Part shown: piece after piece, positions 37,306 to 57,660 of the stretch | Layout of the letters: each line of letters starts with the position of its first letter | How positions within the stretch are numbered: the stretch's first letter is position 1 | NCBI RefSeq assembly: GCF_004123845.1 | Contig: NZ_NBDP01000019.1 | Coordinates: forward strand, 496,001-560,000 | Source of the DNA: Allobosea sp. Tri-44 | Lineage (GTDB): Bacteria > Pseudomonadota > Alphaproteobacteria > Rhizobiales > Beijerinckiaceae | DNA: 64,000 bases | Direction of reading: 5' to 3' | The notes under the pieces: generated by a model | Database searches by the model: none | Seen by the model: the letters and a program-made list of their open reading frames with translations, nothing else | Told to the model about the DNA's origin: nothing | Translations under genes and position numbers: made by a program

Positions 37306-37382
37306 TGGCGCGCCCGACACGATTCGAACGTGTGACCTTTGCCTTCGGAGGGCAACGCTCTATCCAGCTGAGCTACGGGCGC
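37306..37382 (-). tRNA. tRNA-Arg (anticodon CCG)
   Basis: A complete cloverleaf reads on the minus strand: acceptor GCGCCCG pairing with CGGGCGC, D-arm GCTC/GAGC, anticodon stem TTGCC/GGCAA with loop CTCCGAA (anticodon CCG), variable AGGTC, T-arm ACACG/CGTGT with TTCGAAT, and encoded CCA at 37308-37306. Its 5' half lies inside the 65-bp repeat that bounds the genomic island, while its 3' half is outside. Confidence 0.97.
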
Positions 37383-37407
37383 TTTCCGTGGAGGCTGGAT
37401 AGCTGAT
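37343..37407. repeat. Left attachment site (attL) of the genomic island
   Basis: A 65-bp sequence identical to 57596-57660. It spans from the anticodon loop to the 5' end of tRNA-Arg(CCG) and 25 bases of its upstream flank, including the -10 region. The tRNA here is intact because its 3' half continues outside the island. Weaker similarity to the other flank continues to about 37436, consistent with the island carrying a homologous tRNA promoter from another strain. Confidence 0.93.
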
Positions 37408-37424
37408 CCCAGCTGCTTCGGCAA
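37396..37424 (-). promoter_or_regulatory. tRNA-Arg promoter, partly supplied by the island
   Basis: On the minus strand, TTGCCG (37424-37419) and TATCCA (37401-37396) are spaced by 17 bases, and the tRNA starts 13 bases later. The -10 box is within the 65-bp repeat but the -35 box is island DNA. The same pair with the same spacing is at the right end (57677-57649). Confidence 0.6.
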
Positions 37425-37460
37425 CGAGGGAATTTGCGACGAAGCGAAGATGGGTCAGGT

Positions 37461-37494
37461 AAAGGTCGCGCGTTCGAATCGTGTCGGGTGCGCC
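37461..37494 (+). other. Inverted tRNA-Arg 3'-half-like fragment
   Basis: These 34 bases, read on the plus strand, match the variable loop, T-arm and acceptor end of the adjacent tRNA-Arg with about four differences (AAAGGTC..., GTTCGAATCGTGTCGGG, GCGCC). The orientation is opposite to the tRNA gene, and no 5' half precedes it. It is probably a relic of a displaced tRNA end carried by the element. Confidence 0.75.
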
Positions 37495-37555
37495 GCGGCT
37501 GTGGCTGGGCTCCGAAGCTACTCGGGTGGCGAACCCGCAGGCCGTCGCGACGTTG

Positions 37556-38482
37556 CTATCTCCACCTATCCCCGCGTGGTTCATAAGGCTTCATCCAGCT
37601 ATTGCCCGGAGAGACTTTCAAACCGTCGGCCTGATAACCCTGTAAACGGAAGGCCTCGCGGTTCTGCTTGGCTATTTCCCGAGCGGCAGACCAGCGGCCT
37701 CCTTCGAGCAACCGCCAAATTTCCGGGTGTATAGAGATCTCAACGTCGGCTAGCTCCGCTTCGGATGCCATTGGGCCCGATGAAGACTCGGTTGCGAGGC
37801 TTAAAGCAGGCTCATAGTAATATCGCCACTCCCCGTCTGGTCGCGGCAATTCAATTGGTATCGCTGTCTTCGGGTCTGGATCCTTCCAGAAAAACTCAAG
37901 AACATCAGGATTGAAGAAAGCGAAAGAACCGATATTCATTGAGCAATTCTGATTTCCAATTGAAATTAACCTCAAAGCCTGAAATTTTGCTTTATTTTTA
38001 TCTGATTGTGATGGTGCAGCTGAGCGCCCTTTGCTCTCGAAGGCGTGCCAGCGCCCGCTAACATCTTCACCTACGAGATCCGGCCGGGACCTGCCAAGAA
38101 TCGCAGGGTTAAGGTGCTCGCGGAATACGTCTAGATGTAGCAGCCAAGGCGTGGCTAGAAGCCTCGAAGCGAAAAGCTTGCAAAGCGTCATGCCCAGGAA
38201 GTAGCTCACCATGCCCTTCTCGGTCGGATCGAGTGCGGCAAAGGCGTCCGTGCGCCTCAGGTGCAAACTCCAATCCTGCTCCACCGCCATTCGGATTAGC
38301 GCTAAGCGGAAGATGGCCTCGTGAAAGGACGAGGGGCCATGCCGAAACACATGGTAGGCGCTAGGGCGGCCGAGTGTGATCGCAGCCCAGAGAATTTCGC
38401 TCCAGGATGTTTCCAAGGTTCCACAGCGAAAGGTGTATGAGGTTGGAAACGCCTGGCTGGTGAATTCGATCCGCAGCGTCAC
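37556..38482 (-). CDS. PD-(D/E)xK-like protein linked to the type I restriction operon
   Basis: A 308-residue protein whose start overlaps the hsdS stop by four bases (ATGA), so it is the fourth gene of the hsd operon. Residues 133-153 contain RPDLVGEDVSGRWHAFESKG: Pro134-Asp135 and, 14 residues on, Glu149-Ser-Lys151, flanked by hydrophobic strands, which is the layout of a PD-(D/E)xK nuclease core. The N-terminal part is helical (SSFHEAIFRLALIRMAVEQD). I recognise no named family. It may be an accessory nuclease or a structural subunit. The gene is more AT-rich than hsdS. Confidence 0.7.
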   Translation of the reverse strand: MTLRIEFTSQAFPTSYTFRCGTLETSWSEILWAAITLGRPSAYHVFRHGPSSFHEAIFRLALIRMAVEQDWSLHLRRTDAFAALDPTEKGMVSYFLGMTLCKLFASRLLATPWLLHLDVFREHLNPAILGRSRPDLVGEDVSGRWHAFESKGRSAAPSQSDKNKAKFQALRLISIGNQNCSMNIGSFAFFNPDVLEFFWKDPDPKTAIPIELPRPDGEWRYYYEPALSLATESSSGPMASEAELADVEISIHPEIWRLLEGGRWSAAREIAKQNREAFRLQGYQADGLKVSPGNSWMKPYEPRGDRWR

Positions 38483-39948
38483 TCTGCAGCCTCGAGGCGG
38501 CTTGCTTCTCCGGGCATCAGCGCTTCAGCCAGCAGCGCGTCCAACAGCTGACGACGGTGGCCGACGACGGAGGCTAAGCCCCCCTCTAGTCGGTCGCAGA
38601 GTGCCATCAGTGCACCGACCTTGGCGACGATGCGGTGCTGGTCGGCGAGTGGTGGAACGAAAATTTTGGCCGCCTCAACCTGCTTCGAGGAAATATGCGG
38701 AACGCCGTTGCTGCGGCCGGGGTCTATCTGGTCGTTGAAGTGCGGAGAGTTGATCCAGAGGAACAGGTAGTCGTCATCGAGACCTGGCGAGGCCTCGATG
38801 AACCTGCCCACGCGTTGAAGCAGAAGCGAGGGCAGGTCGTCAGCACTTACGCGGGCCACCTTTGTTCCGGTTGTGATGAAAGGTCTGTCTAGCGTTAGCA
38901 CTATGTCGCCTTCGTTGAGCCTAAAGCGCCCGAACTCGGATAGGCGAGCTTCTGGCAGGTGGACAACGTCGTTCCAGCGGATTTCGTCGTGTCCAATGTT
39001 CGCATTGCGGAGAAGGCGCACGCCCGATTTTGAGAACCAACTGCTTTTGAAGGCGTAGCCGTTTTGGAGCGTTCGATAATCGCCAACCGAAGCAGCTTTG
39101 GCCGTCGTGCCCTCTACCAGTTTGCCGCGCACGGCGAGGTTGAGAATGGTCTGGCGCAGCGCCTTGATCTGGTCGGGACGCACCGTCAGCGCCGGCACCG
39201 CGTCAAGGGCGAAGCGGGCATCGGCCTGAAAGGTCTCGGGATCGGGCGCGTTGAGGCGGGAGAAGGTCGCCGCCGCCAGCCGATCCCGCGTCGCCTCGCG
39301 GCTTGTCCGCGCCGCCTCCAGCCGATCGCACAGGCCCATCAACTCATCGACCTTGGCGGCGATGCGGTGCTGTTCGGCGAGCGGTGGGAGGGCGATGATC
39401 TGATCGTATGCCTCAGAACGGCTTAAGCCGGGTTTCACGCCCTTTCCGAGCTTATCCAGATCGAGAGCCGCAAGCGCGTTCAACATAAACCGAAGATCGA
39501 GAAATGAAGGGGCTTCGACGAAGTAGGCAACGTCAGTTGTCCACGATGGGCCGTCGCAAAGGTTCAAGGCACCAGCCGATCCCTTGCGACCTACGATGAT
39601 CGAAGGACGCATTGTCAGGGGTTCAACCGTGAACCCGACGATCCCATTTGAACCGAACACAGGCACCGGGCCTTCTTCCGATCGTTCGGCCGCCTTTAAG
39701 CCCTTGCCGTATTGAAACTCTAGAATCGAACCGATCTTGGCCCGACGCCATCCTTGCGGCAGACCGACTTGGTCCAGCTTCACGTTGGCGATCCGTTTCA
39801 GCAGTTCCGATGCCAGTTCGTCGTTCGGGTCTTGCGGCACGAGTTTGCCGCGCACCGCCAGATCGAGAATGAAGCGGCGTAGCCTCCCGATCGCGTCGGG
39901 CGCGTCGGCGACCTTCTCGTAATGCGCCAGCAGCCGTTCGGCGTTCAT
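38479..39948 (-). CDS. hsdS: Type I restriction-modification specificity subunit
   Basis: The ATG at 39948 overlaps the hsdM stop; the open frame continues to 40176 but without protein character. The 489-residue protein has the two-target-domain layout: two similar conserved helices (LRRFILDLAVRGKLVPQ near residue 25 and LRQTILNLAVRGKLV near 255) each precede a target recognition domain that ends in LPPLAEQHRIAAKVDELMGL or PPLADQHRIVAKVGALMAL. The protein reads the bipartite DNA target for both methylation and cleavage. The second half is more AT-rich, suggesting exchange of the second recognition domain. Confidence 0.92.
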   Translation of the reverse strand: MNAERLLAHYEKVADAPDAIGRLRRFILDLAVRGKLVPQDPNDELASELLKRIANVKLDQVGLPQGWRRAKIGSILEFQYGKGLKAAERSEEGPVPVFGSNGIVGFTVEPLTMRPSIIVGRKGSAGALNLCDGPSWTTDVAYFVEAPSFLDLRFMLNALAALDLDKLGKGVKPGLSRSEAYDQIIALPPLAEQHRIAAKVDELMGLCDRLEAARTSREATRDRLAAATFSRLNAPDPETFQADARFALDAVPALTVRPDQIKALRQTILNLAVRGKLVEGTTAKAASVGDYRTLQNGYAFKSSWFSKSGVRLLRNANIGHDEIRWNDVVHLPEARLSEFGRFRLNEGDIVLTLDRPFITTGTKVARVSADDLPSLLLQRVGRFIEASPGLDDDYLFLWINSPHFNDQIDPGRSNGVPHISSKQVEAAKIFVPPLADQHRIVAKVGALMALCDRLEGGLASVVGHRRQLLDALLAEALMPGEASRLEAAE

Positions 39949-41399
39949 CGTGCCAGCGCCTCGGCGAGGATCGCCTTCAACTGGTCGCGATACGTCGCCG
40001 TCTCGGCTTCGGCGGCGGCGAGGTCGGCCAGCAGCATTTCCGGGTCGCCGTGATCGTCGGCCACTGCGTGCGGGTTCTTGATGTCGAGATTGTAACGGCG
40101 CGCCTTCACCTCCTCGGCGGTGACGCGCCAGGCTTGCGGCGTCTCCTCGCGGCCCTTTCGCTCCTTGCCGCCCCACCAGTCGATGCAGCCCTGGAAATGC
40201 TCCAGCCGGATCGGCTTAGTCATCGAATAAGCTTTCTGGCCGTCCGGCACGCGGTGCTCGTAGAACCAGATGTCGCGCGTGGGCGCGCCCTTCTCGAAGA
40301 ACAGCAAATTGGTGCCAATCGAGGCATAGGGCTTGAACACGGAGTTGGGCAGGCGGACGATGGTGTGGAGGTTGCACTCCTCCATCAGGTGCTCCTTCAG
40401 CCGCGTCTTGACGCCCTCGCCGAACAGCGTGCCATCCGGCAGCACCACGGCGGCGCGGCCGTCGCTTTTGAGGAGGCGCACGATCAACGCCAGGAACAGA
40501 TCGGCAGTTTCTTTGGTGCGGAAGGTCGGGAAATTGTTCTCGATCCCATCTTCCTCGCGCCCGCCGAAGGGCGGGTTGGTGACGACGACATCGACGCGTT
40601 CGTCCTTGCTCCACGAAATCAGCGGCCGCGCCAGCGTGTTGTCGTGGCGCACGAAACTTGGGTCCTCGATGCCGTGCAGCAGCATGTTGGTGACGCAGAG
40701 CATGTGCGGAAGCTGCTTCTTCTCCACCGCGCGCAATGCCCCCTGCATGGCCTCGCGCTGTTTCGGCGTGCGGATGTATTTCTTCTCCATGTGATTGATG
40801 GCACAGGTCAGGAAGCCACCCGTGCCGCAGGCCGGATCGAACAGGATTTCACCCGGGCGCGGGTCGATGCGGTCGACCATGAAGGCGGTCACGGCGCGCG
40901 GCGTGTAATATTCGCCGGCATTGCCGGCCGATTGTAGGTCGTTGAGCAGCTGCTCGTAGAACTCACCGAAGTGGCGCCGCTCGTCGAGATTGTTGAAATC
41001 GACGTCGTTGATCTTGTTGACCACCTGCCGCAGCAACTGGCCGGATTTCATGTAGTTATAGGCATCCTCGAACACGTCGCGCACCACGCGGCGGCGATCG
41101 CCGGGCTGGAGCGAAACCTGCAAGCCCTTCAGCGCCGGGAACAGTTCGTCGTTGATGAAATCCAGTAGCGCCTGCCCGGTGATGCCCTCCGGGTCTGCGG
41201 CCCAGTTGCGCCATTGGAATTTTTCAGAGATTGGCGCCCGGTAGCCATCCCTTGTCAGTTCGAGTTCCTGATCCTGGTCGTCGATGATCTTGAGGAAGAA
41301 CAGCCAGGTGAGCTGACTGATGCGCTGCGCATCCCCATCGACACCCACGTCCTGGCGCATGATGTCCTGAATGGATTTGACGGTGGGTCGGACGATCAT
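39945..41399 (-). CDS. hsdM: Type I restriction-modification DNA methyltransferase subunit
   Basis: A 484-residue N6-adenine methyltransferase. The N-terminal HsdM helical domain (DIMRQDVGVDGDAQRISQLT) precedes the SAM site FDPACGTGGF at residues 187-196 and the catalytic NPPFGG at residues 275-280. It modifies the host DNA at sites chosen by HsdS and forms the core of the restriction complex. It starts two to three bases after hsdR ends and overlaps hsdS by four bases. Confidence 0.95.
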   Translation of the reverse strand: MIVRPTVKSIQDIMRQDVGVDGDAQRISQLTWLFFLKIIDDQDQELELTRDGYRAPISEKFQWRNWAADPEGITGQALLDFINDELFPALKGLQVSLQPGDRRRVVRDVFEDAYNYMKSGQLLRQVVNKINDVDFNNLDERRHFGEFYEQLLNDLQSAGNAGEYYTPRAVTAFMVDRIDPRPGEILFDPACGTGGFLTCAINHMEKKYIRTPKQREAMQGALRAVEKKQLPHMLCVTNMLLHGIEDPSFVRHDNTLARPLISWSKDERVDVVVTNPPFGGREEDGIENNFPTFRTKETADLFLALIVRLLKSDGRAAVVLPDGTLFGEGVKTRLKEHLMEECNLHTIVRLPNSVFKPYASIGTNLLFFEKGAPTRDIWFYEHRVPDGQKAYSMTKPIRLEHFQGCIDWWGGKERKGREETPQAWRVTAEEVKARRYNLDIKNPHAVADDHGDPEMLLADLAAAEAETATYRDQLKAILAEALAR

Positions 41400-41402
41400 A
41401 GG

Positions 41403-43847
41403 CTATGCGGTCTCCTGATAGATCGCGTCCTGCATTTCGTGGACGGCCTTCTCGAAGCCCTCCCTGCCGCCGAACGCCTTGATGAGTTGCACGACGCTGC
41501 CCATCGCGGTGAAGGGCGTCACCTTCAGCACGTTGGCGTCGTCGAGATTGAGCACGCCCTCGTCGCGATACTTGTCGAGCAGCGCGTCGAGCACGGCACG
41601 CGCCTGAGGCCCGTATTTTGTGAACACATCGCGCTTCCTGACGTTCTCGGCCCGCTCCCGGCGGGTGAGCGGCTTCTGGTCGAAGGCGATATGGCAGATC
41701 AGATCGAAAGGATCGAGGATTTTGCCAAGCTCGTCCGCGACTGAATCCAGCGCCAGGCCCTCTGCTTCCAGCTCCTCGATGATCGCCTGCTTGCGTTCTG
41801 CCGATTTCCAGCGCTTGAGGAAATCGTCGAGGCTAGCGAAGCGCTTCTTCAGCTCTGTCTTGGTGAAGTCGCGCAGGGATTCGGTGACGAGCTTGCCGTT
41901 CTCGTCGAGATATTCGACGCGCTCGGCGACGATGCGGGCGCCGACGCCATCGACGTAGATCTTGCGGACTGGTCCGCCGGTTTGCTGCGGCGGACCTGGC
42001 TGATCGACCACGGTTTCGCCCTCACCGGGCTCGTATGGCCTCTGCTCATTTTCACCGAAGCCATCTGGCGTGTCATCGGGCGGCGTGATCGGATCGCCTT
42101 CGCTCGGCTCGTAAATCTGCACGGGATCGCCGTCGAAGTCAGGGTCGGCGAAATGGCCGGTCGCGCCGCGAAAATCGATTAGCGTGAAGAAGAATTTCTT
42201 CGTGTCCTCGTGAACACGGGTGCCGCGTCCCACTATTTGCTTGAACTCGGTCATCGAGCCAACCGCACGATCGAGCACGATCAGCCGGCAGGTTTGTGCA
42301 TCGACCCCGGTCGATAAGAGCCGAGAGGTCGTCACCAGGACGGGGTATTTCGATTCCGGGTCGATGAAGTTGCCAAGCTGATCCTGGCCTTCCTTATCGC
42401 TGCCGGTGATGCGCATGACGTAGCGCTGATTCTGCGAGACCAGATCGGCGTTCTCGTTGACGAGTGCCTGCCGCATCCGCGCCGCGTGCTCCTCATCGAC
42501 GCAGAAGACGATGGTCTTCTGGAAGCGGTCGCCGTTTTCCTTCAGGAACTCGGTAATCTTCTTCGCAGTGAGCAGCGTGCGGTCGTCTAGAACGATATTC
42601 CGGTCGAAATCCTTGACGTTGTAGATTCGGTCTTCGACCTCGTTGCCGGCACGGTCGAGCTGGCCGAGTTTCGGCCGGTAGCCTTCCACGTCGCGATCGA
42701 TGTGAACCTTGATCACCTTGTAGGGCGCGAGAAAGCCGTCGCTAATCCCCTGCTTCAACGAATAGGTGAAGACCGGTTCGCTGAAATAGTCGGTATTGGA
42801 CACATATTCGGTTTCCTTGGGCGTGGCAGTGAGGCCGATCTGCGTTGCGCCGGAAAAATGCGTCAGGATTTCCCGCCAGGCCGAATCCTCGGCCGCGCTG
42901 CCGCGATGGCATTCGTCGATGACGATCAGATCGAAGAAGCCGGGCGAGAATTCGCGATAGAGCTTCTGCCGTTCTTCCGGGCCGGTGATCGCCTGATAGA
43001 GCCCGAGATAGACCTCGAAGGCCGTGTCGATCCGCCGTTTCCTGTCGAGCGCCAAGGCCAGATCGACCGTGGTGCCGTCGTAGCGCTCGATCGTCTTAGC
43101 GTTGGTCGAGAGCTTCGCCATCGCCGCGCCGAACGGGCGGAAGTCGTTGACCATCGTCTGGTCGATCAGCACGTTGCGATCTGCTAGGAACAGGATGCGC
43201 TTCTTGCGGCCGGCCTTCCACAGGCGCCAGATGATCTGAAACGCCGTGTAGGTCTTGCCAGTGCCCGTCGCCATGACGAGCAGCACGCGGTCGCGGCCCT
43301 TGGCGATTGCCTCGATCGCGGCGTTGACAGCGTTCACCTGATAATAGCGCGGGGCCTTGCCGCTGCCGTCGTCGAAATAGTCCTGAAGCACGATCTGTTC
43401 GGCCTCGGCGTCGAGCCCCTTCCAGGCGCGATAGCGCGCCCACAGATCGGCCGGGGACGGAAAGGCGTCAAGGCCGAGGTTCGTTTCGATTGGAACGCTC
43501 CGGCCGGTGCGGTCGTGGAACACGAAGCCGTCGCCGTTCGAGGAGAAAACGAAGGGGACGTCCAGCGTCGCGGCATAGTCGAGCCCCTGCTGGATGCCGT
43601 GACCGACGCTGTGTGAGTTGTCCTTGGCCTCGATCAGCGCGATCGGGATGTTCGGCTTGTAGTAGAGAACGAAGTCGGCCTTCTTCGCCTTGCCGCGCGT
43701 CACCAGCTTGCCGCGCACAATGATCCGGCCTTTGGTGAAATAGACCTCCTCCCGAACCTGCACCATCTCGTCCCATCCGGCGCGCTTAATGGCCGGGAGG
43801 ATGAATTTCGTGCAGATGTCGCGTTCGGTGAGCGCGTGCTTATCCAT
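41403..43847 (-). CDS. hsdR: Type I restriction endonuclease motor subunit
   Basis: An 814-residue HsdR. An N-terminal PD-(D/E)xK nuclease is seen at Asp58 (KKADFVLYY) and Glu73-Ala-Lys75 with a following QQGLDYA (Q-x3-Y motif). The SF2 translocase has Walker A ATGTGKT at residues 193-199, DECH at 311-314, and later helicase motifs including TSRLLSTGVD and QIVGRGTR. A C-terminal EcoEI_R-type helical domain finishes it. It translocates and cuts unmodified DNA together with HsdM and HsdS. It is the first gene of the operon. Confidence 0.95.
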   Translation of the reverse strand: MDKHALTERDICTKFILPAIKRAGWDEMVQVREEVYFTKGRIIVRGKLVTRGKAKKADFVLYYKPNIPIALIEAKDNSHSVGHGIQQGLDYAATLDVPFVFSSNGDGFVFHDRTGRSVPIETNLGLDAFPSPADLWARYRAWKGLDAEAEQIVLQDYFDDGSGKAPRYYQVNAVNAAIEAIAKGRDRVLLVMATGTGKTYTAFQIIWRLWKAGRKKRILFLADRNVLIDQTMVNDFRPFGAAMAKLSTNAKTIERYDGTTVDLALALDRKRRIDTAFEVYLGLYQAITGPEERQKLYREFSPGFFDLIVIDECHRGSAAEDSAWREILTHFSGATQIGLTATPKETEYVSNTDYFSEPVFTYSLKQGISDGFLAPYKVIKVHIDRDVEGYRPKLGQLDRAGNEVEDRIYNVKDFDRNIVLDDRTLLTAKKITEFLKENGDRFQKTIVFCVDEEHAARMRQALVNENADLVSQNQRYVMRITGSDKEGQDQLGNFIDPESKYPVLVTTSRLLSTGVDAQTCRLIVLDRAVGSMTEFKQIVGRGTRVHEDTKKFFFTLIDFRGATGHFADPDFDGDPVQIYEPSEGDPITPPDDTPDGFGENEQRPYEPGEGETVVDQPGPPQQTGGPVRKIYVDGVGARIVAERVEYLDENGKLVTESLRDFTKTELKKRFASLDDFLKRWKSAERKQAIIEELEAEGLALDSVADELGKILDPFDLICHIAFDQKPLTRRERAENVRKRDVFTKYGPQARAVLDALLDKYRDEGVLNLDDANVLKVTPFTAMGSVVQLIKAFGGREGFEKAVHEMQDAIYQETA

Positions 43848-43985
43848 CGGCGGCGGCAGTCTCGTGTTTGGCGTGAGGCTGCGCCGACCAGGCGCCAGGA
43901 AGGATCAGCATGATGCTTGAACGAGACAAGCAAACAGTCGTCAGTATGCTCGTCACATGAGGCATGTCCAGCCGGGGCAATCGGA

Positions 43986-44998
43986 ATGCGAGCATCATTG
44001 ACCTCTGAGGCGGTCCACCACTCCATTGCAGAATTCAACGCCCTCGGCCGGGAGGCTTTTCTCCGCACCCACGGCTTCGGCACGGCCAAGGACTACATGC
44101 TCTTGGTCGACGGTAAGGAATACGACTCGAAGGCGATCGTCGCAGTCGCGCACAAATACCTTGCAGGCGATGGACGTCCGCTGAGACACGATGAACTATC
44201 GGGTGGTGTGGCCGACGCCGTCCGGAAGCTATCGGATTTGAACTTCCAGGTCGTCCGGCACTCCGACCGCGTGGACTGGACTTGGGACGAGCATGTGCTC
44301 GCTCTGGAGCTCTATTTCCTCAACCCCGCGTCCCCTCCTGGCAAGGCTAGCGCAGAGGTTCTGGCGCTGTCCCAATTGCTGCAGCATTTTGGCGACCGGA
44401 GAGGCATCGAGCGCGGCGAGACCTACGTAACGCCAACGGCGTCTACATGAAGATGATGAACTTCCGCCGGCTCGACCCAGCGTTCCAGGCGGCAGGCAAG
44501 GTCGGCTTGTCCCAGGGAAACAGGCTCGAGGAAGAGGTTTGGCTCACGTTCGCGAACGACCGTGAGGGATTGGCTCGGGCGGCCGCTGCAATCCGGACGG
44601 CAATCAATGACGATGCGGTCAGCGTTAGGGATGACGCCTACGAGGCCGAGGAGGGCGGTCTGATCCTGCGCCTGCATCTGTCCCGAGAGCGGAACAGGGC
44701 GTTGGTGCAACGGAAGCGGGACCAGGCTCGCGGGCGGCATGGACTCCTGGTCTGCGAGGCGTGCGAGTTCGACTTCTCGACGGTGTATGGCGAGCTTGGC
44801 TTCGGCTTCATCGAGGTGCACCATCGAAAGCCGGTCGCGTCGTTGCAACCAGGCGACAGGACGAAGTTGGAGGACCTCGCTCTCGTCTGCGCCAATTGTC
44901 ATCGCATGCTGCACCGTCGTAGCGCGCTGCTCAGCGTCGAAGATCTTCGGATGATCGTCGGCCAGCAGCGCGGGCGGCTGAATGCGGATGCAGCATAG
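43986..44998 (+). pseudogene. McrA-like HNH endonuclease interrupted by a one-base frameshift
   Basis: The first frame (43917 or 43986 to 44450) encodes a ScoMcrA-type N-terminal domain (HGFGTAKDYMLLVDGKEYDSKAIV, WTWDEHVLALELYFLNPASP). The second frame (44447-44998) continues the same protein and carries the HNH centre: CEACEFDF, GFIEVHHRKPV and CANCHRMLH. The conserved junction, which in relatives reads RN-NGVYMK-MNFR, is split: the text near 44427 would read YRNANGVYMKMMNF if one C were restored. Type IV enzymes of this kind cut modified DNA. Either it is a recent pseudogene or a sequencing error. Confidence 0.8.
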
Positions 44999-45087
44999 GA
45001 AGCGCAGAGGCGCTTGCTAGCTTGATCCGTCGTTTGCGACGAGGCTGACTAGCTCAGCCGTGCCGAGCCAGCGGGTGAGCGCCTGGC
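44983..45087 (+). repeat. Diverged direct repeat, copy 1
   Basis: This 105-base segment aligns without gaps to 45643-45747, exactly 660 bases downstream, with about 76% identity by hand count. It begins at the 3' end of the HNH gene (TGCGGATGC, CATAGGA) and contains small inverted repeats (AAGCGC/GCGCTT and CGTCG/CGACG). Confidence 0.8.
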
Positions 45088-45129
45088 GTGGCGAAGACGG
45101 CTGATCACCGGACGCGCGGGGCGAAAGAG

Positions 45130-45576: not shown

Positions 45577-45642
45577 ATCTACGTCCCGCGCTACGATAAT
45601 GCCGCCGTGACGATCTACGCCGCCGTTGAGCGTTTGCTCTCC

Positions 45643-45747: not shown

Positions 45748-45796
45748 TCAGGCTCTCTCGATCCAGGCTGCTCGCGACGAAGCCGCTCTGGAAGAA

Positions 45797-46222: not shown

Positions 46223-46346
46223 GATGTCTCCGTGCGCACTGCCATCGAAATAGCCGCACGAAAGGGAACCCCTCCGTCATAGCGCGACACTCACAGCCGG
46301 TGCGTCGCTAACCCTCTGGGATCTCGAGGCTCAGCTCAGCCGGTCA

Positions 46347-49540: not shown

Positions 49541-49717
49541 GCTCACCCCATTCTTGCTAAATGGGGAGGCGCTGCTCCGGGCGAATTCCCAGATGCCGAT
49601 CAAGCGGCGCTGGTGCTGATGGACAACCGCTCAGACGGCAAATTCGGGCGAATCGTCGTCACGCGCAAGCTCGACCTAAAGTCCGGCTCGGTCATGCGCC
49701 GAGCGTTCTCAACCCCA

Positions 49718-50713
49718 TTACCCCAGTCGGCTGACGAGATCGGTCGCTCGGAGGTGAGCGTAGCGGCTGAGCATGCGCAGCTCTTTGTGTCCGGAGATCG
49801 TAGATACCTCTACAACGTTTAGCCCTTTCTCGAACAAGCGTGAGACGGCTTCGTGGCGCAGGTCGTGGAAGTGCAAAGCGGTGATGCCCGCGCGGCCACA
49901 CAGATGGCCCCAGGCTTGAACGACCGCGCTCTCGCTGGTTGGCAGCGCTCGACCTGCTGAAGGGCTTCCTTGGCCCTCCCAGAGTCCCTGGAGCACGGCG
50001 CGCGCTCGCGACGACAGAGGGACGTCACGGGACTCGCCGTTCTTGGTCATCGGTAGGTGCGCGATCTGCGTCTCCAGGTCGACGTGCTGCCAGTCGAGCG
50101 ATAGCAGCTCGCCGCGCCGCATGCCGGTTTCGATCGCGAGCACGATGAGGTCGCGCATATAGAGATTTCTACCGCTATCGGCAGCAGAGAGCAGCCGCTG
50201 CTCCTCGTCGTCGCGCAGCCGGCGATTGCGCCCTCGAGGCGGGCTCGGACGGCGCACGAGCTTGCAAGGGTTCCGGTGCAGATAGATGTCCCAATCACGC
50301 ATCGCGGTGTCGATCGCATGGCTGATCGTGTTGAGCTCGCGGATCACTGTCGATGGCGACACAGTCCGAAGCCGTTCGTCGCGATACGTGGCGAGATCCG
50401 AGGTCGACAGCAGCGCCAACGTCCGGTGACAGAGCGGACGACGCAGCAGCGCCTTGATCCGCGAGATCTCGGTGTGGGCGCTGCGCTTCCTGGGCGATAT
50501 TTCGACCACGTAGCGCTCAAGGATCGACCGTAGAGTCGTAGATTCAGCTACGCGCGTATCCGGCAGCATTCCGCAGCGATCGAGCTCGGACTCCAGTGAC
50601 CGCGCCCACTTCTCGGCGTCGGCCTTCTGGTCGAAGCTCTTGGCACGAGGCGCCATGCCGCGCCGTCGCACTTGTGCCTGCCATCTGCCCCGGAGTTTCC
50701 GGATAGTCGCCAT
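49718..50713 (-). CDS. Tyrosine-type site-specific integrase
   Basis: A 331-residue integrase with the full catalytic set: Arg199 in TGMRRGEL, Lys224 in MTKNGES, His283-x-x-Arg286 in HFHDLRHEA, His309 in SGHKELR and the nucleophile Tyr318 in LSRYAH. The N-terminal part has an arm-binding segment (IRKLRGRWQAQVRRRGMAPR) and a SAM-like core-binding domain. It starts 195 bases from a diverged tRNA-Arg-like site at 50908-50948, the arrangement expected of an element whose integrase sits at its att end. It is the best candidate for integration into tRNA-Arg. Confidence 0.93.
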   Translation of the reverse strand: MATIRKLRGRWQAQVRRRGMAPRAKSFDQKADAEKWARSLESELDRCGMLPDTRVAESTTLRSILERYVVEISPRKRSAHTEISRIKALLRRPLCHRTLALLSTSDLATYRDERLRTVSPSTVIRELNTISHAIDTAMRDWDIYLHRNPCKLVRRPSPPRGRNRRLRDDEEQRLLSAADSGRNLYMRDLIVLAIETGMRRGELLSLDWQHVDLETQIAHLPMTKNGESRDVPLSSRARAVLQGLWEGQGSPSAGRALPTSESAVVQAWGHLCGRAGITALHFHDLRHEAVSRLFEKGLNVVEVSTISGHKELRMLSRYAHLRATDLVSRLG

Positions 50714-50907
50714 TGCGGATCAGTCCTGTTCGTCCAATGACTACAGGACGCCCAGGCAGTCCCGCCAAGGAGGTTTCCGGAGCGGGGCAAGGAATTCCGA
50801 GCTGGATGTGGCCCTGGTGTGCCGATCGCCGGTCGGGGAGCTCGACCGGGTATCAGGATACCTGGTTCATCAAAGGGTTCCGAAGATCCCGCTCTCCGCC
50901 TGGATCC

Positions 50908-50948
50908 GCCTTCGGTAGGCAGTGCTCTTAGATCAGCGCTACGGGCGC
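50908..50948 (-). repeat. Third, diverged tRNA-Arg-like attachment site inside the island
   Basis: Read on the minus strand, this is GCGCCCGTAGC, then a diverged D-arm, then the anticodon stem-loop with the anticodon CCG kept and GAAGGC after it. Against the tRNA it has 11 of 11 matches at the 5' end and 16 of 20 at the anticodon end, with a one-base deletion between. It has the same orientation as both outer sites. The stop codon of the RloC-like gene lies within it. Confidence 0.7.
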
Positions 50949-53335
50949 CGAGTGAACGCCAGCGTTCGCTGCGAAAACCGAACCAGCTCTTGATCATTTA
51001 TGATCTCCACCTGCCAGGCAGGGTTGGAGTCATGGTGAAACCGGTTCCCAAACACTCGAAGGTCGTCGAGCTCGTTGATGTCGGCCTGAGTGAGTATCTC
51101 ATTAGGACCGCCCAAGTCCGTGCGACACCGGCCGATAAAGCCTCCAAGCATTGTTCCTGGCGGAAAGTGCGCTGGATATGCAACCCGTAAGAAAGCTTCG
51201 AGAATGGGGCGTATAGCTGTCGCGACCTCGCGCTCCTGCGCAGGGTTGTTGGCTCTCAAATAAGCCGAAATGACTTCATGGCGCTTATCGTGAACCGTTA
51301 TGGAGTCTTGCCTGATATCCCATGGGGCGAGAGTTGAGCCTTGTCCATCGCGGGCAATTCGAATCGCGACAGGAGAATGCCGATCTGACGCATCCGACAG
51401 TTGGCACAGAAATGCTTTAGAATGCGATAAAATAATTACTTGGCCAACGCGGTCGACAAGGCGATTTAATTCTTGAATGGTAGCCAGTGATCGATGTTCA
51501 TCAAGGCTAGTCATAGGATCATCGATAATAACAATTTTGTTAGCAATGCCAGGGTCGCTTTCGAGCGCCGAAAAGAAAAACGCAAGAGCTAATGTATTTC
51601 TATCTCCCGCGCTCAAGGTGTTCCTAAAGCTAGGCGCGCCAGCATTTGCGCCCAATCCAACGGGGATGTTATTTATAACAACATTGTAATTTGCAGAAGA
51701 TCCGGCTCGATTATTGACAGGCGACACGGCACCAAGGCGGAATCCCGCATTAAACCTAATCAAATGTGCGTTGATGGACGCTTCGTAGGCTGGAAATACA
51801 TTTTGGCGATACTGATCCAGCGCTTGCCTCGCTTGATCGCGTTGCCCTTCTGTCACTGCCTTCGCCGACTTCTCCGTCAGATAGACCTCGCACAGTAACG
51901 AGATCTCCTGCGAGTGCCGTGCATCAATTGCCTTCAACCTGGCGAGATCAGCGGCGAGAGCGTCAACGTTTGCGGCGGCAGCCTGCTCCTTCGCAAGAGC
52001 GATCTGAGGGTTAGCGCCCATAGTGGCTTCGACAGAAGCATTGAATGCCTGGCGCTCTCGCTCGTAGGTCTCGAGCGCTAAAGTGACATCGGGGGGCAAC
52101 ACAAGCGGGTCGAGAGGGGCGCCTTGCTTCCTGGCTAGCAATTGTAAGACCGCGTCCCTCGCAGCGCGCCATGCACGCGCAATGGCGGCGGTATCAAGCT
52201 GAAGCCCTGGCAGACGTATAAATTGACGCCAGAACTGCCGCCGCTCCTCCAGAATGCGCACATTCCGCTCGAACGCTGCTGGAATTTCGCCGGCGTGGGC
52301 GGCATTGATGCCTTCGCGCTGTGCGGCCAGTGCCTGCCGCAGCAGAGCATACGCCTCACTAAAAAAGGCGCGATAATGATCAATCACCGGCGATGCGACG
52401 AGGCCTTGTTCGCAGAATGGGCATATCTCCTGATCGTGACCTTGCGAAGCCGGCCCGATTCTTGAGATGCCGTCGGCAATCCAGCTCTCTCCGCCGCGTC
52501 CCAGCTTCGCTAGATGACTCTGGACGTGTGCGGCTGCTGCCTGCTCGAGCTCGGGCAAGCCCTGTCGCAAAAGAGCGCTAATAGCGGCGACATCGAAGCT
52601 CGGGAGGCTCACAGCCTCGAATTCTAGGCCGTTCTGAATCTCGTGTCCCGCGCGAGCAGCGGCCAAGCGTCGCTCGGCGTCGGAGATCAGTTCCGGCAAT
52701 CCAGGGAGTAGCTCAAGGGCGGAGAAGGCATCGACGCTCAGCACACCTCTTATAGCCGGCGGGATCGCATCGCCCTTTGCACGAAGCTCCTGATTATGAG
52801 CCTCGATGCGATCCACATGGCTCTGTAGCGCCGAATTAAGGGCAACTCCCTGTGCCCCCAAAATCAGCTCGTGCAAATTCTGACGATGTTGGGCGCCGAT
52901 CTCGATCCCAGAACATACATTCTGCGCAACAAAGACATCGTCGAAGATGGCAAGCTGCGATAGTGGAGCAGACCATCTGCCTTGCTGAAACACATGGGCG
53001 ACCCCGGCTGCCAAAATGACGATCTGCGCTGGATCTTGAGTCCCTAGTCGTTGTCTTTCGACAACCATTACGGCGTCATTAGTCTGAAGAGAGCGCAGCA
53101 ACGAAGCTAGCGTCGTTTTTCCGCGACCGTTCTCTGCGTAAATCAAGTTCAGCTTCGCTAAGGGTAACTGTGCACCTGCTGTAACATTCTCGAATTGTCC
53201 AATATTTCGCAGATGCCGAAATTGCTCGATCACGTGCTTCCCCCGGGTGTTTTTTCTCGCTGAACCATCCAATTTTCGCGGATCACCGGCAAGCGCAAAG
53301 CGCAGAGGCCAGTCCGGATCCTCATGGCGGCTCAT
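50939..53335 (-). CDS. RloC/PrrC-like AAA (ABC-type) ATPase, possible anticodon nuclease
   Basis: A 798-residue protein with an ABC/SMC-type ATPase split by a long insert: Walker A AENGRGKTTL at residues 67-76, signature NTLSAGDRNTLALAF, Walker B KIVIIDDPMTSLD and switch ILSHSKAF. The insert is helical with a CPFC zinc-hook-like pair (Cys305, Cys308). After the ATPase, Arg709-x3-Glu713 (RPILE) and His767/His768 (NRFHHD) recall the Arg-Glu-His set of the anticodon nucleases PrrC and RloC. Such enzymes guard restriction systems by cutting tRNA. The ATG at 53335 overlaps an upstream small frame; a GTG at 53233 has a better ribosome site. The last codons and stop fall in a tRNA-like att site. Confidence 0.8.
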   Translation of the reverse strand: MSRHEDPDWPLRFALAGDPRKLDGSARKNTRGKHVIEQFRHLRNIGQFENVTAGAQLPLAKLNLIYAENGRGKTTLASLLRSLQTNDAVMVVERQRLGTQDPAQIVILAAGVAHVFQQGRWSAPLSQLAIFDDVFVAQNVCSGIEIGAQHRQNLHELILGAQGVALNSALQSHVDRIEAHNQELRAKGDAIPPAIRGVLSVDAFSALELLPGLPELISDAERRLAAARAGHEIQNGLEFEAVSLPSFDVAAISALLRQGLPELEQAAAAHVQSHLAKLGRGGESWIADGISRIGPASQGHDQEICPFCEQGLVASPVIDHYRAFFSEAYALLRQALAAQREGINAAHAGEIPAAFERNVRILEERRQFWRQFIRLPGLQLDTAAIARAWRAARDAVLQLLARKQGAPLDPLVLPPDVTLALETYERERQAFNASVEATMGANPQIALAKEQAAAANVDALAADLARLKAIDARHSQEISLLCEVYLTEKSAKAVTEGQRDQARQALDQYRQNVFPAYEASINAHLIRFNAGFRLGAVSPVNNRAGSSANYNVVINNIPVGLGANAGAPSFRNTLSAGDRNTLALAFFFSALESDPGIANKIVIIDDPMTSLDEHRSLATIQELNRLVDRVGQVIILSHSKAFLCQLSDASDRHSPVAIRIARDGQGSTLAPWDIRQDSITVHDKRHEVISAYLRANNPAQEREVATAIRPILEAFLRVAYPAHFPPGTMLGGFIGRCRTDLGGPNEILTQADINELDDLRVFGNRFHHDSNPAWQVEIINDQELVRFSQRTLAFTRRP

Positions 53336-53589
53336 TTGCTCTGGAAACCAGCCCAGTCGGTTACCCCGTGGACAATGGGACGGTCGCTGAGGACGTCATC
53401 ACGATCGAAAGAGCGCGGAAATGCCGAGTATAATGACGTGGCAGCGACGCGGAAAGGCCAGTTAATCCCGCCTGGCTTAACACGGGCAATCATCTTTCGC
53501 TTAGCAAGTGCCGATTGCATTCGAACTCCGGCCGGTCGCGAGCACCAAAGCGTTAGCCCCAATACTCGCGTGCGGCGCAGATCAATCAA
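53332..53589 (-). CDS. Possible small coupled gene, unknown
   Basis: An 85-codon frame starting at a TTG that overlaps the RepB-like stop by four bases, and ending with a TGA that overlaps the ATG at 53335. This double overlap repeats the pattern of the neighbouring genes and is the only support. The sequence (GINWPFRVAATSLYSAFPRS, DRDDVLSDRPIVHGVTDWAG) has no recognised family. It may be spurious. Confidence 0.3.
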   Translation of the reverse strand: MIDLRRTRVLGLTLWCSRPAGVRMQSALAKRKMIARVKPGGINWPFRVAATSLYSAFPRSFDRDDVLSDRPIVHGVTDWAGFQSK

Positions 53590-54488
53590 GCCGCCTGGTC
53601 GGCGAAGGAGTTAGCATCGGCGATCGCCTGAAAATGCTCCAGGTATTCTGGGCGGTGCTGCAGGAGATAGCGCACAACGCGTGGGTTACCGAGAAGCTTG
53701 CCGAGATAGCCCTTCACGACGGTCAGCTGGAGATGCTCCTTGCCATAGGTCTCCTGGATCTCAACCATCGATTCCCGCAGCCTGGCGAGCTCCTTCTCCA
53801 TTTTTGCCATCGCCTCCGGTGTGACGCCGCGCACCTTTTTCGATTTCTTCTCGCCAGCGAGCTCATTCGTTGGCGTTCCCGCGAGAAGTGCGGTCGCATA
53901 GACCGCCGTGTAGTTATTTGCAGCAATCATCAGTTCGGTCGCCTCGATCTGGCGCAGCGGCTTCATTCGCTTAAGGATCTCAAACACGGCCATCGGGCAC
54001 ACCGTGTCCTTCAACATCGACACAACCTCATGGCAGACGCCATCAAGTAAGGTCGCCTTTCGTTTCACGCTGTTGACGTGCATCCCTAGCGCGCACGCGA
54101 TTTTCTCCTTTGATACCCCGCGGGCGATCGCCTTCAGGATCATGGCATGTTCTTGGACGGCCGAGAGTCGACTGATCCGCTTGTTAAAGGTGAAGCTCTC
54201 GTCGTCGGTCGATACGAGGCATTCTATCTCGGTCTTGCCAAGGTCCTTCAGGATCTCAATGCGGACGTGGCCGTCGAGAAGAAGGAAGCTGGCCGGATTG
54301 CCGTCGATCCTTGCTATCACTGGCGGCTCGACCAGGCCGATCTCAACCACTGAGGTTCGGATCTGCTGATACTTATGACTTGCTTTGACCGACGCCCGAG
54401 GCGGCCGAACGGGCAAGAGCGATGTGATCGGCACGGTGATGCACTCTGGCTCGAAGGCGATCCGTGTCTGGTTGAGTGTCTCGTTCAT
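53586..54488 (-). CDS. ParB/RepB-type partition-like protein (second copy)
   Basis: A 300-residue protein with a ParB/Srx-like N-terminal domain (VPITSLLPVRPPRASVKASH, VIARIDGNPASFLLLDGHVR), an HTH region (ALGMHVNSVKRKATLLDGV) and a RepB C-terminal helical domain with a coiled region (AMAKMEKELARLRESMVEIQ). It overlaps the preceding ParB-like gene by four bases. Paired proteins of this kind follow large serine recombinases in many rhizobial islands. Here there is no ParA, so a role in segregation is doubtful; a role in recombination or regulation is possible. Confidence 0.82.
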   Translation of the reverse strand: MNETLNQTRIAFEPECITVPITSLLPVRPPRASVKASHKYQQIRTSVVEIGLVEPPVIARIDGNPASFLLLDGHVRIEILKDLGKTEIECLVSTDDESFTFNKRISRLSAVQEHAMILKAIARGVSKEKIACALGMHVNSVKRKATLLDGVCHEVVSMLKDTVCPMAVFEILKRMKPLRQIEATELMIAANNYTAVYATALLAGTPTNELAGEKKSKKVRGVTPEAMAKMEKELARLRESMVEIQETYGKEHLQLTVVKGYLGKLLGNPRVVRYLLQHRPEYLEHFQAIADANSFADQAA

Positions 54489-55378
54489 GCCGGGACTCCT
54501 AAGATGCGGCTCTCCAGGTCTTTCGGCATCGAGTCGAGGCGCTCGGCCCGTAGCAGAGTTACGAAATTCTCATCGGCCCGCAGATTCTTGAGCGCTTCGA
54601 CCACGAAAAGCAGGCGGGTTTCCGTGACTTCGGCCTTCTTCACCAGGAGGCGCTGCTTATCGGCTTCTTGCTGAAAAATACGGACGAATGCCTCCGAAGA
54701 TCTGGCCCTGCTAAGTTTCTTTCCAAACGGGTTCGTCGACACGTGTTTGCCGCTTCGCGTCCGCTGCTCGATAAGGCGCCTCATCTTGATCAGCCGCGGG
54801 CCAGAGATTCTCCCCTCGGTATAAGCTTCGGCCAGCATCTGTTGGACGGTTTCGTCATCGGCGCGCGCAATTTCAATCGCGACCGAGATTGGAATTGTCC
54901 CCGCATCGACGGCCTCGATAAGGCGTTGCTCGCCCTTCTCGATAAGCGTGGCCATCAGGCTGACCCACTCTGGCGAGGTGCCAATTTTCTCGGCAATCTG
55001 GCGGTCGTTATAGCCGCGTTTGCGCAAAGTCGTGACGTCTTGAAGCAAGTCGATGGAACGATGCTGCCGGCGGGCGCAGTTCTCGACCAGGCTCATCAGA
55101 AGGCATTCCTCCTGCGTCGCCTCAGTTACAATGGCTGGGATGTCTGTTCGACCTAGCTCCCGAAATGCTTCAATACGGCCTTGGCCGCAGGCGAGGCCGT
55201 AGGAGCGTTGACCGTCTGGGCCACTCATAGTGTTGACGCGGATCGGGCGCTTTAGCCCGACCGTCTTAATGCTCTCGACCACCTCGAGGAACTTGCGTCG
55301 GTTCCGGACGCGGGGGTTCAGGATGATGATCCGGTCGATCGGGATCATCTCCACGCGGGTGTGCTTGGCTTCGGTCAT
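54485..55378 (-). CDS. ParB/RepB-type partition-like protein (first copy)
   Basis: A 297-residue ParB-like protein: PIDRIIILNPRVRNRRKFLE, the CTP-site motif GLACGQGRIEAFRELG, the ENCARRQHRSIDLL stretch, and an HTH (NDRQIAEKIGTSPEWVSLMA). A RepB-type C-terminal domain follows. It overlaps the recombinase stop and the second copy's start by four bases each, so three proteins are made from one message. The strict coupling suggests they act as one unit. Confidence 0.85.
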   Translation of the reverse strand: MTEAKHTRVEMIPIDRIIILNPRVRNRRKFLEVVESIKTVGLKRPIRVNTMSGPDGQRSYGLACGQGRIEAFRELGRTDIPAIVTEATQEECLLMSLVENCARRQHRSIDLLQDVTTLRKRGYNDRQIAEKIGTSPEWVSLMATLIEKGEQRLIEAVDAGTIPISVAIEIARADDETVQQMLAEAYTEGRISGPRLIKMRRLIEQRTRSGKHVSTNPFGKKLSRARSSEAFVRIFQQEADKQRLLVKKAEVTETRLLFVVEALKNLRADENFVTLLRAERLDSMPKDLESRILGVPA

Positions 55379-56946
55379 GCCGCCTCCTCGAATTGAGCTC
55401 GGGCCGCCAGGGAGAACAGGAAGTCCAGAGTCTCGAAGCGATAACCATCCAGTGACAGACCGTTGTTCTCGGCGAGCCGAAGCTTCGGCTCGGTCATGTC
55501 CAGGCGCGGGAGCAGGTAGTAGTCGAGCGGGGAGATGTTGCCGCGATCCATGCGCACGGCGATCGTGATGTCGGGAGCCAGGCCGGCGTCGAGCCGGATG
55601 CGCCAGCGTGGCGAGCCTCCTTGCGTCTCGCCGCAGCGTGCCACGACGACCGAGGCGGTGAACTCGCCGTTGACGTCGATCAGCCCCGAATCGGGATCGA
55701 CGAGAACCTCGCCGCCGGCGACGCGCAAGCCGCCGATCACCATGGAAACGACATCCGGGTGCATCGCCCGCAGGCGCCGGTTGATCTCGATGTAGCGGTA
55801 GTCCCGCCTCGGACTGTAGCCGACGAGGTGATAGGCGCGCAGCAAACTGCCGAAGCGGCTCCGATAGACGCTGCTCGACGGCATGTCCTCTCGCTCGTCG
55901 ATGACGAGGCTGGACAGCGCCCCCTGAGCCTCCAGCAGCGACCGCAGCAGGTCGATGAGCTCGGCGTCGTTCATCCTCCGGCTACGGTCCTCCACTATCC
56001 TGGCCGCGCGCTCGAAAGTGGCGATATCGACGACGGCGGTGAACACGCCGCGGGCGCGGACCCAGTGCTCCTGCGTGTTCACGACCCGGCGCATCTTCAG
56101 CTTGAAGCTGACTCGGTTGAACACGTTGTCGCCAATGTATTTCGGGTTGGTCAGGACCTGATGAACGGTGCCGCGCGTCCAGGGGCGCCCCAGGTCGGTG
56201 ACGATTCCCTCATGGTTTAGGCCGGCCGCGATCTGGGCCTCCTGCACGCCGAGATCGACGAAGAGGCGATAGATGCGCCGGACGACCTCCACCTCCTCGG
56301 GCGGACCGGGGATTAGGATCACGCGATCGGTCTGGAGACTCTTGCGCTCGCCGATCGAGAGCTCGGACTTGGGTTCGCCGTTCTCGTCGATCAGGAGCCG
56401 CCGCAGGCCGTAGCCGGCCATCCCGCCCTGACGATACCCTTTCTCGACTAGGCGGCACTGGCCGGCGAAGACCTTGACCGACAGCTCCCGGCTATATTCC
56501 CCCGCCATAACCCGCTTGACGGTCTTCAGTAGATTGGAACCGATGCTCCCGTCGTTCTCGAACTGCTCGGCGCAGTAATGGACGACAATGTCCGCGCGCG
56601 AGCAGAGGAACTCCAGGTGCGCTCCGTGGTCGGCATTCTGGAAGCGGCCCCAGCGGCTGACGTCGTAAACCAGGATGGTGCCGAAGTCTGCGGCGCCACG
56701 CTCCACGTCGGCGAGCAGGCGCTGAAAGGTGTCGCGACCCTCCAGGTTCAGGCCGCTCTTACCAGCGTCCTCGTAGACCCGGACGATCTCGATGTCGCGG
56801 GCCTCGGCGAAGCGCTTGATCGCGTCAAGCTGGTTCTCGGTCGAGTAGCGCTGGTGGTCGGTCGACATTCTGACGTAGGCAGCCGCCCGCCGTGACCTCT
56901 CCGGGCCGATCCGCGCAATCCGACTCGATCCTTCAGCGCTACTCAC
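55375..56946 (-). CDS. Large serine recombinase
   Basis: From the GTG at 56946 the protein has about 523 residues: a resolvase-type catalytic domain with the nucleophile Ser in AAYVRMSTDHQRYSTENQ and Arg in VYDVSRWGRF, a recombinase domain (GYGLRRLLIDENGEPKSELS, LNHEGIVTDLGRPWTRGTVH, LTNPKYIGDNVFNR), and a long unusual C-terminal part with no clear zinc ribbon. The open frame to 57141 lacks protein-like character and overlaps a divergent gene. It leads a three-gene coupled set with the two ParB-like proteins. Site preference is unknown. Confidence 0.88.
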   Translation of the reverse strand: MSSAEGSSRIARIGPERSRRAAAYVRMSTDHQRYSTENQLDAIKRFAEARDIEIVRVYEDAGKSGLNLEGRDTFQRLLADVERGAADFGTILVYDVSRWGRFQNADHGAHLEFLCSRADIVVHYCAEQFENDGSIGSNLLKTVKRVMAGEYSRELSVKVFAGQCRLVEKGYRQGGMAGYGLRRLLIDENGEPKSELSIGERKSLQTDRVILIPGPPEEVEVVRRIYRLFVDLGVQEAQIAAGLNHEGIVTDLGRPWTRGTVHQVLTNPKYIGDNVFNRVSFKLKMRRVVNTQEHWVRARGVFTAVVDIATFERAARIVEDRSRRMNDAELIDLLRSLLEAQGALSSLVIDEREDMPSSSVYRSRFGSLLRAYHLVGYSPRRDYRYIEINRRLRAMHPDVVSMVIGGLRVAGGEVLVDPDSGLIDVNGEFTASVVVARCGETQGGSPRWRIRLDAGLAPDITIAVRMDRGNISPLDYYLLPRLDMTEPKLRLAENNGLSLDGYRFETLDFLFSLAARAQFEEAA

Positions 56947-57019
56947 ACAAGGCCACTCCACACTCGACGTCTCGTAGGCCGGCGGACGTCGCCGGTCAGT
57001 CAAGCGCGGAGGCGGCGGA

Positions 57020-57421
57020 ATGTCCTTTCCGAATTCGGGCAACTCCTTGCCCAACGGCCGAGGGAAAGCGATCGGCCCTCCCGCTTTTGCCAAACTGGTC
57101 GCAACGGCGTTGAAAGCCGCGCTTCGAGGGCAGTCTTCCAAGATAAAGACGGTGGCGCTCTGGACCGGCGCGAACGATCGAACTGTAAAAAACTGGCTCT
57201 CCGGCGAGCGCGCTCCTAGCGGCGATCATTTTCTCGGACTGGCGGCCAATTGCCCTGCCGTCCTTGCCGCTTTCCTGGCGGCAATCCATCGGAACGACTG
57301 CCTGGTCATGGCCGACATCGAGGAAGCTCGCGCCAAGGTAGCTGCTGCGCTGGTAGCGCTGGAAGCTGTTCGAGCTGTCCAGTTGGGTAACGAAGAGCTG
57401 CAGCAAGGAGGCTTGGAATAA
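57020..57421 (+). CDS. Small HTH-like DNA-binding protein, probable regulator
   Basis: A 133-residue protein with an XRE-like helix-turn-helix pattern: KIKTVALWTGANDRTVKNWL followed by SGERAPSGDHFLGLAANCPA and a C-terminal helix. Related short proteins sit divergently from large serine recombinases in rhizobial islands. It starts 73 bases from the recombinase start, a likely shared promoter region, so it may repress or activate the recombinase operon. It is the last gene before attR. Confidence 0.7.
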   Translation: MSFPNSGNSLPNGRGKAIGPPAFAKLVATALKAALRGQSSKIKTVALWTGANDRTVKNWLSGERAPSGDHFLGLAANCPAVLAAFLAAIHRNDCLVMADIEEARAKVAAALVALEAVRAVQLGNEELQQGGLE

Positions 57422-57595
57422 GGTGCGCTTGGTCCCAAAATCTCAAGGGCGAGCGATCCCCTGCACCACCTCAGTTTGAGCGGTTGCGGCGCGGTCGTGC
57501 CGATCCAGCTCATGAGCGGTTTCATCGCAGTAATGCGATGCTTAGAACCTTGAAATATATAAGATTTTTAGTGACGCTCCGGGCGTGATTCCCAG

Positions 57596-57660
57596 CTTCG
57601 GAGGGCAACGCTCTATCCAGCTGAGCTACGGGCGCTTTCCGTGGAGGCTGGATAGCTGAT
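57596..57660. repeat. Right attachment site (attR) of the genomic island
   Basis: Identical over 65 bases to 37343-37407. Here only the 5' half of tRNA-Arg, from the anticodon loop outward, and its upstream flank are present, so this copy is a truncated tRNA. Beyond 57660 the DNA is chromosomal and represents the original upstream region of the tRNA gene. Confidence 0.93.

Follow-up and report, generated by a model that had tools for sequence, protein, structure and literature searches.

The 64,000-nucleotide stretch of Allobosea sp. Tri-44 analysed here (contig NZ_NBDP01000019.1, positions 496,001 to 560,000; hereafter the window) contains a tRNA-Arg(CCG) gene whose 5' half and upstream region are repeated at the far end of an island. 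We consider it probable that this gene is a hotspot of 5'-type site-specific integration, at which a tyrosine integrase of the family encoded at 49718-50713 gave rise to a tandem stack of modules. The two ends of the inserted DNA comprise the following features (positions are those of the window; the division of the gene into host and island-side halves comes from comparison with empty sites):

37306-37382, minus strand: live tRNA-Arg(CCG), the only tRNA gene of the window
37306-37342, minus strand: 3' half of this gene, host DNA
37343-37382, minus strand: 5' half of this gene, island-side
37343-37407, minus strand: left repeat copy, from the anticodon loop through the tRNA 5' end and 25 bp into the promoter region
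37396-37424, minus strand: predicted live tRNA promoter, with -10 box TATCCA (37396-37401) and -35 box TTGCCG (37419-37424)
57596-57660, minus strand: right repeat copy, a displaced tRNA-Arg 5' half with its putative promoter reading into the island
57649-57654 (-10 box) and 57672-57677 (-35 box), minus strand: displaced promoter at the right end
57762-60896, minus strand: acrB-type RND pump, the chromosomal flank common to empty-site strains

The two repeat copies are direct repeats identical at 65 of 65 positions, and their likeness extends to 92 bp at 92%, further than a sequence-only reading of the window had noticed. As that reading had described, the repeat has one end at the 3' side of the anticodon loop and the other in the upstream flank, past the 5' end of the tRNA, and TTGCCG and TATCCA are found at both island ends with the same spacing of 17 bases. 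The G+C content is 58-62% inside the island and 64-67% outside, which fits foreign DNA but is no proof of it by itself.

Integration through the 5' half of the tRNA, as that reading had proposed, is supported by strains lacking the insert. The comparison set consisted of 67 genomes of the genus Bosea (G-numbers designate genomes and L-numbers loci). In G085 and G073 the site is empty, being made up of the tRNA, approximately 100 bp, and then acrB. The empty site predicted for the window (host 3' half, right repeat copy and right flank) aligns across the junction over 343 bp with G085 (82%) and G073 (80%), and on the basis of this alignment the right flank represents the old flank of the gene, and the left interior belongs to the island. 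The opposite arrangement, an empty-site tRNA whose upstream sequence matches position 37408 onwards, was also looked for; it is the island's right flank, and not the left interior, that runs on into acrB in both genomes. The outer 27 bp upstream appear to be alleles that occur on either side, and empty-site G073 has the window's left allele letter for letter (by eye). G013, G035 and G005, which also lack the inverted 3' half described below, were rejected as clean empty sites on account of approximately 450 bp extra before acrB compared with the window's right flank. The 3' flank of the tRNA is unusable as proof of the bacterial attachment site (attB), because it is unlike between most genomes (by eye), because nothing in the window's genome matches the G013 flank, and because in G013 and G028 the homologue of 36000-36649 lies 405 kb and 441 kb away, oppositely oriented relative to the tRNA. 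The positions of this homologue suggest that the tRNA, or a place close to it, was a rearrangement breakpoint.

Similar ends recur throughout the genus. Displaced 5'-half copies without a 3' half were found in at least 20 of the 67 genomes, which discounts an assembly artefact as the source of the repeats; a query consisting of the tRNA and its 5' flank finds a match of some kind in 66 of the 67, paralogous tRNA genes counted. The module right end of the window (...GTGATTCCCAG; 57577-57595, plus strand) abuts the core, i.e. the anticodon-arm sequence at which the repeat begins. Exactly CCCAG precedes 16 of 26 displaced 5'-half rows, the ten exceptions (L067, L070, L071 at 2304, both rows of L075, L122, L123, L124 at 1854, L127 and L130) being mostly near variants. 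A 28-base right-end pattern matched seven stretches, all of them from Bosea; a weight matrix for right ends was too weak for scanning (true site 12.6, shuffled windows up to 16.1). The left ends show a common order: repeat, promoter region, a spacer of approximately 42 bases, an inverted tRNA 3' half, and the block GCGGNTGTGGC.

Displaced promoters have often decayed, and live ones have not. Both boxes at 17-base spacing are intact in all 53 live copies vs 13 of 23 displaced copies (Bosea copies with sufficient sequence; Fisher p 1.2e-6, with related copies treated as independent). These counts leave out L071 at 2013, L124 at 1854 and L075 at 6670, as well as L138, which duplicates L061, and L115-L118, which the species table does not include; a length of at least 95 bp was also required, which removed L129. 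The TTGCCG-17-TATCCA pattern can be regarded as the putative genus-wide promoter of this tRNA, and the contrast between live and displaced copies supports the promoter reading and indicates which copy is likely to be the working one. Within a genome, live and displaced copies have a median identity of 0.98 (19 pairs), vs 0.79 between genomes, and the displaced copy is closest to the live copy of its own genome in 12 of 19 cases, ties counted; because of this, a module may often bring no foreign promoter, or the copies may have been homogenised. The window is an exception, its displaced copy showing 0.87 identity to its own live copy (rank 6 of 53). The earlier proposal that the island carries its own tRNA promoter therefore holds in part: the -35 region of the live gene is island-side DNA, with the box at 37419-37424 located beyond the perfect 65-bp repeat, whereas the foreign control that this wording suggests is not supported, given the genus-wide box pattern and the close match of most displaced copies to their own live copy.

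The sequence-only reading had treated 37343-57660 as one island. A single 20-kb island was rejected on account of two internal boundaries, which that reading had missed, and of the recurrence of the sequence upstream of the window's integrase at the left end of L070, in another genome:

49574-49592, plus strand: core-less module right end GCTCCGGGCGAATTCCCAG, like the one before 57596 (score 15)
50910-50948, minus strand: decayed displaced core plus 5' half at an internal module boundary, upstream of the integrase (score 19)

The score of 19 compares with a highest value of 15 among 1966 random island segments, and the score of 15 with a highest value of 13 among approximately 2000; both places had already been singled out when they were tested. 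The inserted DNA is thus probably a stack of at least two, and probably three, modules, although the internal boundaries, which are supported by these matches, are less certain. The predicted modules are as follows:

37343 to approximately 49592: module 1, restriction-modification
from there to 50909: module 2, integrase
50949-57595: module 3, ATPase, RepB and serine recombinase

Beyond the live promoter of the window, a further part of the tRNA gene, overlooked by the sequence-only reading, is present in the opposite orientation:

37457-37494, plus strand: inverted tRNA 3' half, 89% complementary to 37307-37344
following it, up to 37505: GCGGCTGTGGC, a block common to many left ends

Inverted 3' halves with a score of at least 17 were found in 55 of 82 rows (38 of 57 live and 17 of 25 displaced), 51 of the 55 at an offset of 40-44; these tallies omit L138 and require at least 110 bp of sequence past the repeat. 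Against the 3' half, 99% of shuffles scored 9 to 12; the shuffle limits cover part of the rows, and the 82-row tally was made without shuffles. Both clean empty sites, G085 and G073, have no inverted 3' half (score 6 each). In an alignment of 51 full-length inverted copies (score at least 17, offset 38-44), conservation is seen in the half from GGCAAAGG onward but not in the anticodon loop: the most frequent base accounts for 0.41-0.51 of the copies at loop positions 3-7, and for 0.84-0.92 at the four positions that follow. The window's own inverted copy is without the core. In the basal genome G064 (L115, 1818-1843), the inverted copy has the altered T stem of the host tRNA (ACAGG/CCTGT), a single case which hints that the inverted copy may be renewed from, or obliged to match, the local tRNA. 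A tRNA-like folding of the inverted half was rejected, since T-stem pairing is broken in several copies (by eye; e.g. L061 and L072).

Two functions could be imagined for this arrangement. The order of 3' half, 5' half with promoter, and inverted 3' half has the geometry of an invertible switch, in which the promoter/5'-half segment would flip and so complete the tRNA with the 3' half that the element carries; the inverted copy of L070 (6200-6235), which has kept the core, matches the tRNA at 100% identity. Such a switch is extremely improbable and was discarded, because the crossover bases vary among the 51 aligned copies, the core has been lost in the window, and none of 59 intact tRNA rows has a GCGGNTGTGGC-like block past its 3' end, as expected of the inverted state. 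Alternatively, the inverted half could act as an RNA insulator by pairing with the tRNA 3' half in transcripts reading through from the cargo. All eight island genes of the window with a Pfam match do read toward the tRNA, and the T stem of G064 would agree with such pairing, but changes that keep pairing through G-U show no excess (46 copies; 0.054 vs 0.079 per site; L115 and copies matching at fewer than 26 of 36 positions were additionally left out). Given this lack of wobble bias, RNA pairing was rejected, and we regard an insulator as distinctly unlikely.

The window encodes two recombinases that might account for the integration:

49718-50713, minus strand: tyrosine integrase of 331 amino acids (PF00589, E 9.7e-31), with a whole frame and no stop
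55375-57141, minus strand: large serine recombinase, the rival integrase

The tyrosine integrase is most likely that of the site, judging from its distribution and its surroundings. The PF00589 scan covered 16 of the at least 20 genomes with displaced copies (G015, G016, G031 and G071 were left out) and was combined with tblastn. Six of the 16 (G000, G006, G009, G018, G024 and G075) have a whole copy of the window's integrase inside the island, always oriented toward the tRNA, and G022 and G072 have a partial copy; integrase remnants are located beside left ends in G024 and G015. As expected of a tyrosine integrase that uses an anticodon core, all six whole Bosea copies are preceded by an anticodon-arm-like core, GAGC(A)(T/C)TGCC plus loop, which in every one begins precisely 214 bp before the integrase start. 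The loop itself varies (e.g. TATGCAA in G009), and the sequence beyond this core is unlike from genome to genome.

Outside the genus the family was followed through the order, where 23 of 397 genomes, the window's own included, have a match at 1e-40 or better. The upstream regions of 22 non-Bosea loci were read by eye and with ARAGORN, L174 and L177 being left out. In ten of the 22, an intact tRNA has its 3' end toward the integrase at a distance of 79-115 bp; the 5' end faces the integrase in L168 (a near-intact tRNA) and L169 (intact). L166 has only a 5' half plus core upstream of the integrase and looks like a 5'-type end outside Bosea. Only a 3' half is present in L164, L171, L173 and L178, and no tRNA was seen by eye upstream of the integrase in L157, L158 and L172.

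The large serine recombinase is the more obvious candidate by position, as its start lies 454 bp from the right end, which it adjoins; it is also present in the islands of G024 (92%) and G006 (87%), and other Bosea serine recombinases end antisense inside tRNA-Arg, which may therefore be a target of such enzymes. It is nevertheless unlikely to be the integrase. Unlike in a serine-integrase island, PF07508 was found inside the island in only three of the 16 genomes (G000, G006 and G024), all three of which have the tyrosine integrase as well; it occurs nowhere in the G009 genome and is on other contigs in G075 and G018, and a 68% relative (G002 C28, a draft genome) is on a different contig than the tRNA. 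According to the Islander description, moreover, tRNA genes are not known targets of serine integrases (PMC4383910). Site-specific integration could be dispensed with altogether if the region upstream of the tRNA had been duplicated, or had recombined homologously, to give the repeats. That live and displaced copies usually carry the same allele in a genome would agree with this, hinting at homogenisation or local capture. We hold it to be very unlikely, given that the boundary recurs at the anticodon core with a common right end, that the cargo is unlike among the sampled modules, and that the empty sites of G085 and G073 are precise.

Under the preferred explanation, 5'-type integration by the tyrosine integrase, an enzyme of the 49718-50713 family would exchange strands in the anticodon arm of tRNA-Arg(CCG), at crossover bases that may lie in its loop. 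The host 3' half would thereby be joined to the 5' half and promoter of the incoming module, and the host's own 5' half and promoter would be displaced to the far end, where they would be free to decay. Repeated rounds would push older modules rightward and so build the tandem stack. Cargo modules without an integrase may have been moved in trans, or may have lost it.

Several results weigh against this explanation. The window's integrase was not found in eight of the 16 islands by PF00589 scan and tblastn, and in the window it is located 12 kb from the live end, with the left end of its own module missing. The core beside it, CTTCGGTAGG, is unlike the core at the cargo right ends, CTTCGGAGGG, for which reason the cargo modules may use another enzyme. 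Its closest relatives outside Bosea, L157 (69%) and L158 (62%), are without a recognisable upstream tRNA. Among 38 viral loci scanned, seven tRNAs stand before an integrase, and all seven have the 3' end facing it; from the tRNA orientation in these and the 22 non-Bosea loci, the family appears to act at tRNA anticodon arms, but mostly in the 3'-type layout. In the plasmid and phage collections, no record spanned 80% of the left end; among the matches listed, at most 30% was covered, mainly the tRNA 5' half.

A variant is possible, if rather doubtful, in which the modules would be tRNA-anchored cassettes. These would be recombinase-free, with a common left end (core, 5' half, promoter, inverted 3' half and GCGGNTGTGGC) and a common right end (...CCCAG), and would be loaded serially in trans by an anticodon-arm integrase; the inverted half would then be a working part of the attachment site, obliged to match the host tRNA. 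Tandem accretion at one attachment site, with cargo possibly mobilised in trans, is familiar from staphylococcal cassette chromosome (SCC)-type and integron cassettes.

The remaining cargo of the window consists of the following predicted genes:

38479-43847, minus strand: type I restriction-modification genes hsdS, hsdM and hsdR
50939-53335, minus strand: AAA_13 ATPase (PADLOC PDC-S06), a candidate anti-phage gene
53586-55378, minus strand: two RepB/ParB-like proteins

Other modules carry a glycosyltransferase and an HlyD protein (L070), a DUF892 protein and an exonuclease (L072), or an aminotransferase (L066). The region 53586-57141, with the serine recombinase and the two RepB/ParB-like genes, is 92-97% alike in G024. 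Large serine recombinase genes located 3' of tRNA-Arg end antisense inside the tRNA in L261-L264, L060 and L259 (anticodon CCG; ACG in L259), their C-termini reading ...WRARHDSNV or WRARKDSNL followed by a stop (L060 is cut by the contig end). No clear displaced 3' fragment was seen at the far end of these six loci in the stretches examined.

Other layouts occur at the same tRNA. In G008, G076 and G080 (L131, L132 and L136), 3'-half fragments with some core bases are found approximately 18-30 kb away on the 3' side of the tRNA, and G008 has 5'-type copies on the 5' side as well. Further 3'-half fragments are present in G015 and, on another contig, in G071. The G015 locus (L071; C1:548280-612166) has no full usual tRNA-Arg(CCG) among the matches listed, and two 3' halves and two 5' halves are spread apart over 64 kb; a displaced 5' half lies approximately 245 bp from a different tRNA-Arg(CCG) gene, which may have taken over as a substitute.

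Islands of the 5' type at tRNA genes are a known but rare kind. Islander lists, by its published description, 3760 islands with a 3' tDNA fragment and 159 with a 5' fragment, of 3919 (PMC4383910), and use of the 5' half is described as seldom met in bacteria (PMC8371274, citing Williams 2002); two further reports add, in the sections considered, nothing on 5'-type sites (PMC10654092, PMC11476347). The inserted DNA of the window belongs to this kind by its direct repeat, the empty site in two relatives, the 5' fragment upstream in the same orientation, and the integrase between the repeats. As described for the 5'-fragment islands of Islander, there is a displaced 5' part upstream of an intact tRNA in equal orientation, an integrase aboard, and an anticodon-centred crossover; differences from that published description are the tandem modules, several without a detected integrase, and the inverted 3' half at the live end. 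The pTN3-like integrases of the Thermococcales, as summarised in PMC8371274, likewise use the tRNA 5' half as attB, and the rebuilt tRNA is then expressed from the element side; there, however, the integrase gene is split and its own promoter drives the tRNA, whereas in Bosea the promoter is a copy of the genus tRNA promoter and the integrase, whole in frame, is not at that end. With ordinary 3'-type tRNA islands the Bosea modules share the anticodon core, and related integrases of other genera show the 3'-type layout, but in such islands the 3' half is replaced and the promoter is untouched.

At title and abstract level, no report of a tandem arrangement with inverted 3' halves was met in the open-licence literature. 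What is new here is the apparent tandem stacking, the recurrence of displaced 5'-half copies in the genus, the inverted 3' halves, the decay of displaced as compared with live promoters, and a likely integrase from a mostly 3'-type family. Within Bosea, sites can be followed from empty through single to stacked, fragments of the 3' type and of the 5' type are found at the same tRNA, and the integrase family seems to have both layouts, so that a switch between the replaced gene halves becomes testable. Most tRNA islands leave the host promoter in place; here, every round of integration would hand control of the tRNA to module DNA, and the comparison of live and displaced copies suggests selection for an intact promoter.

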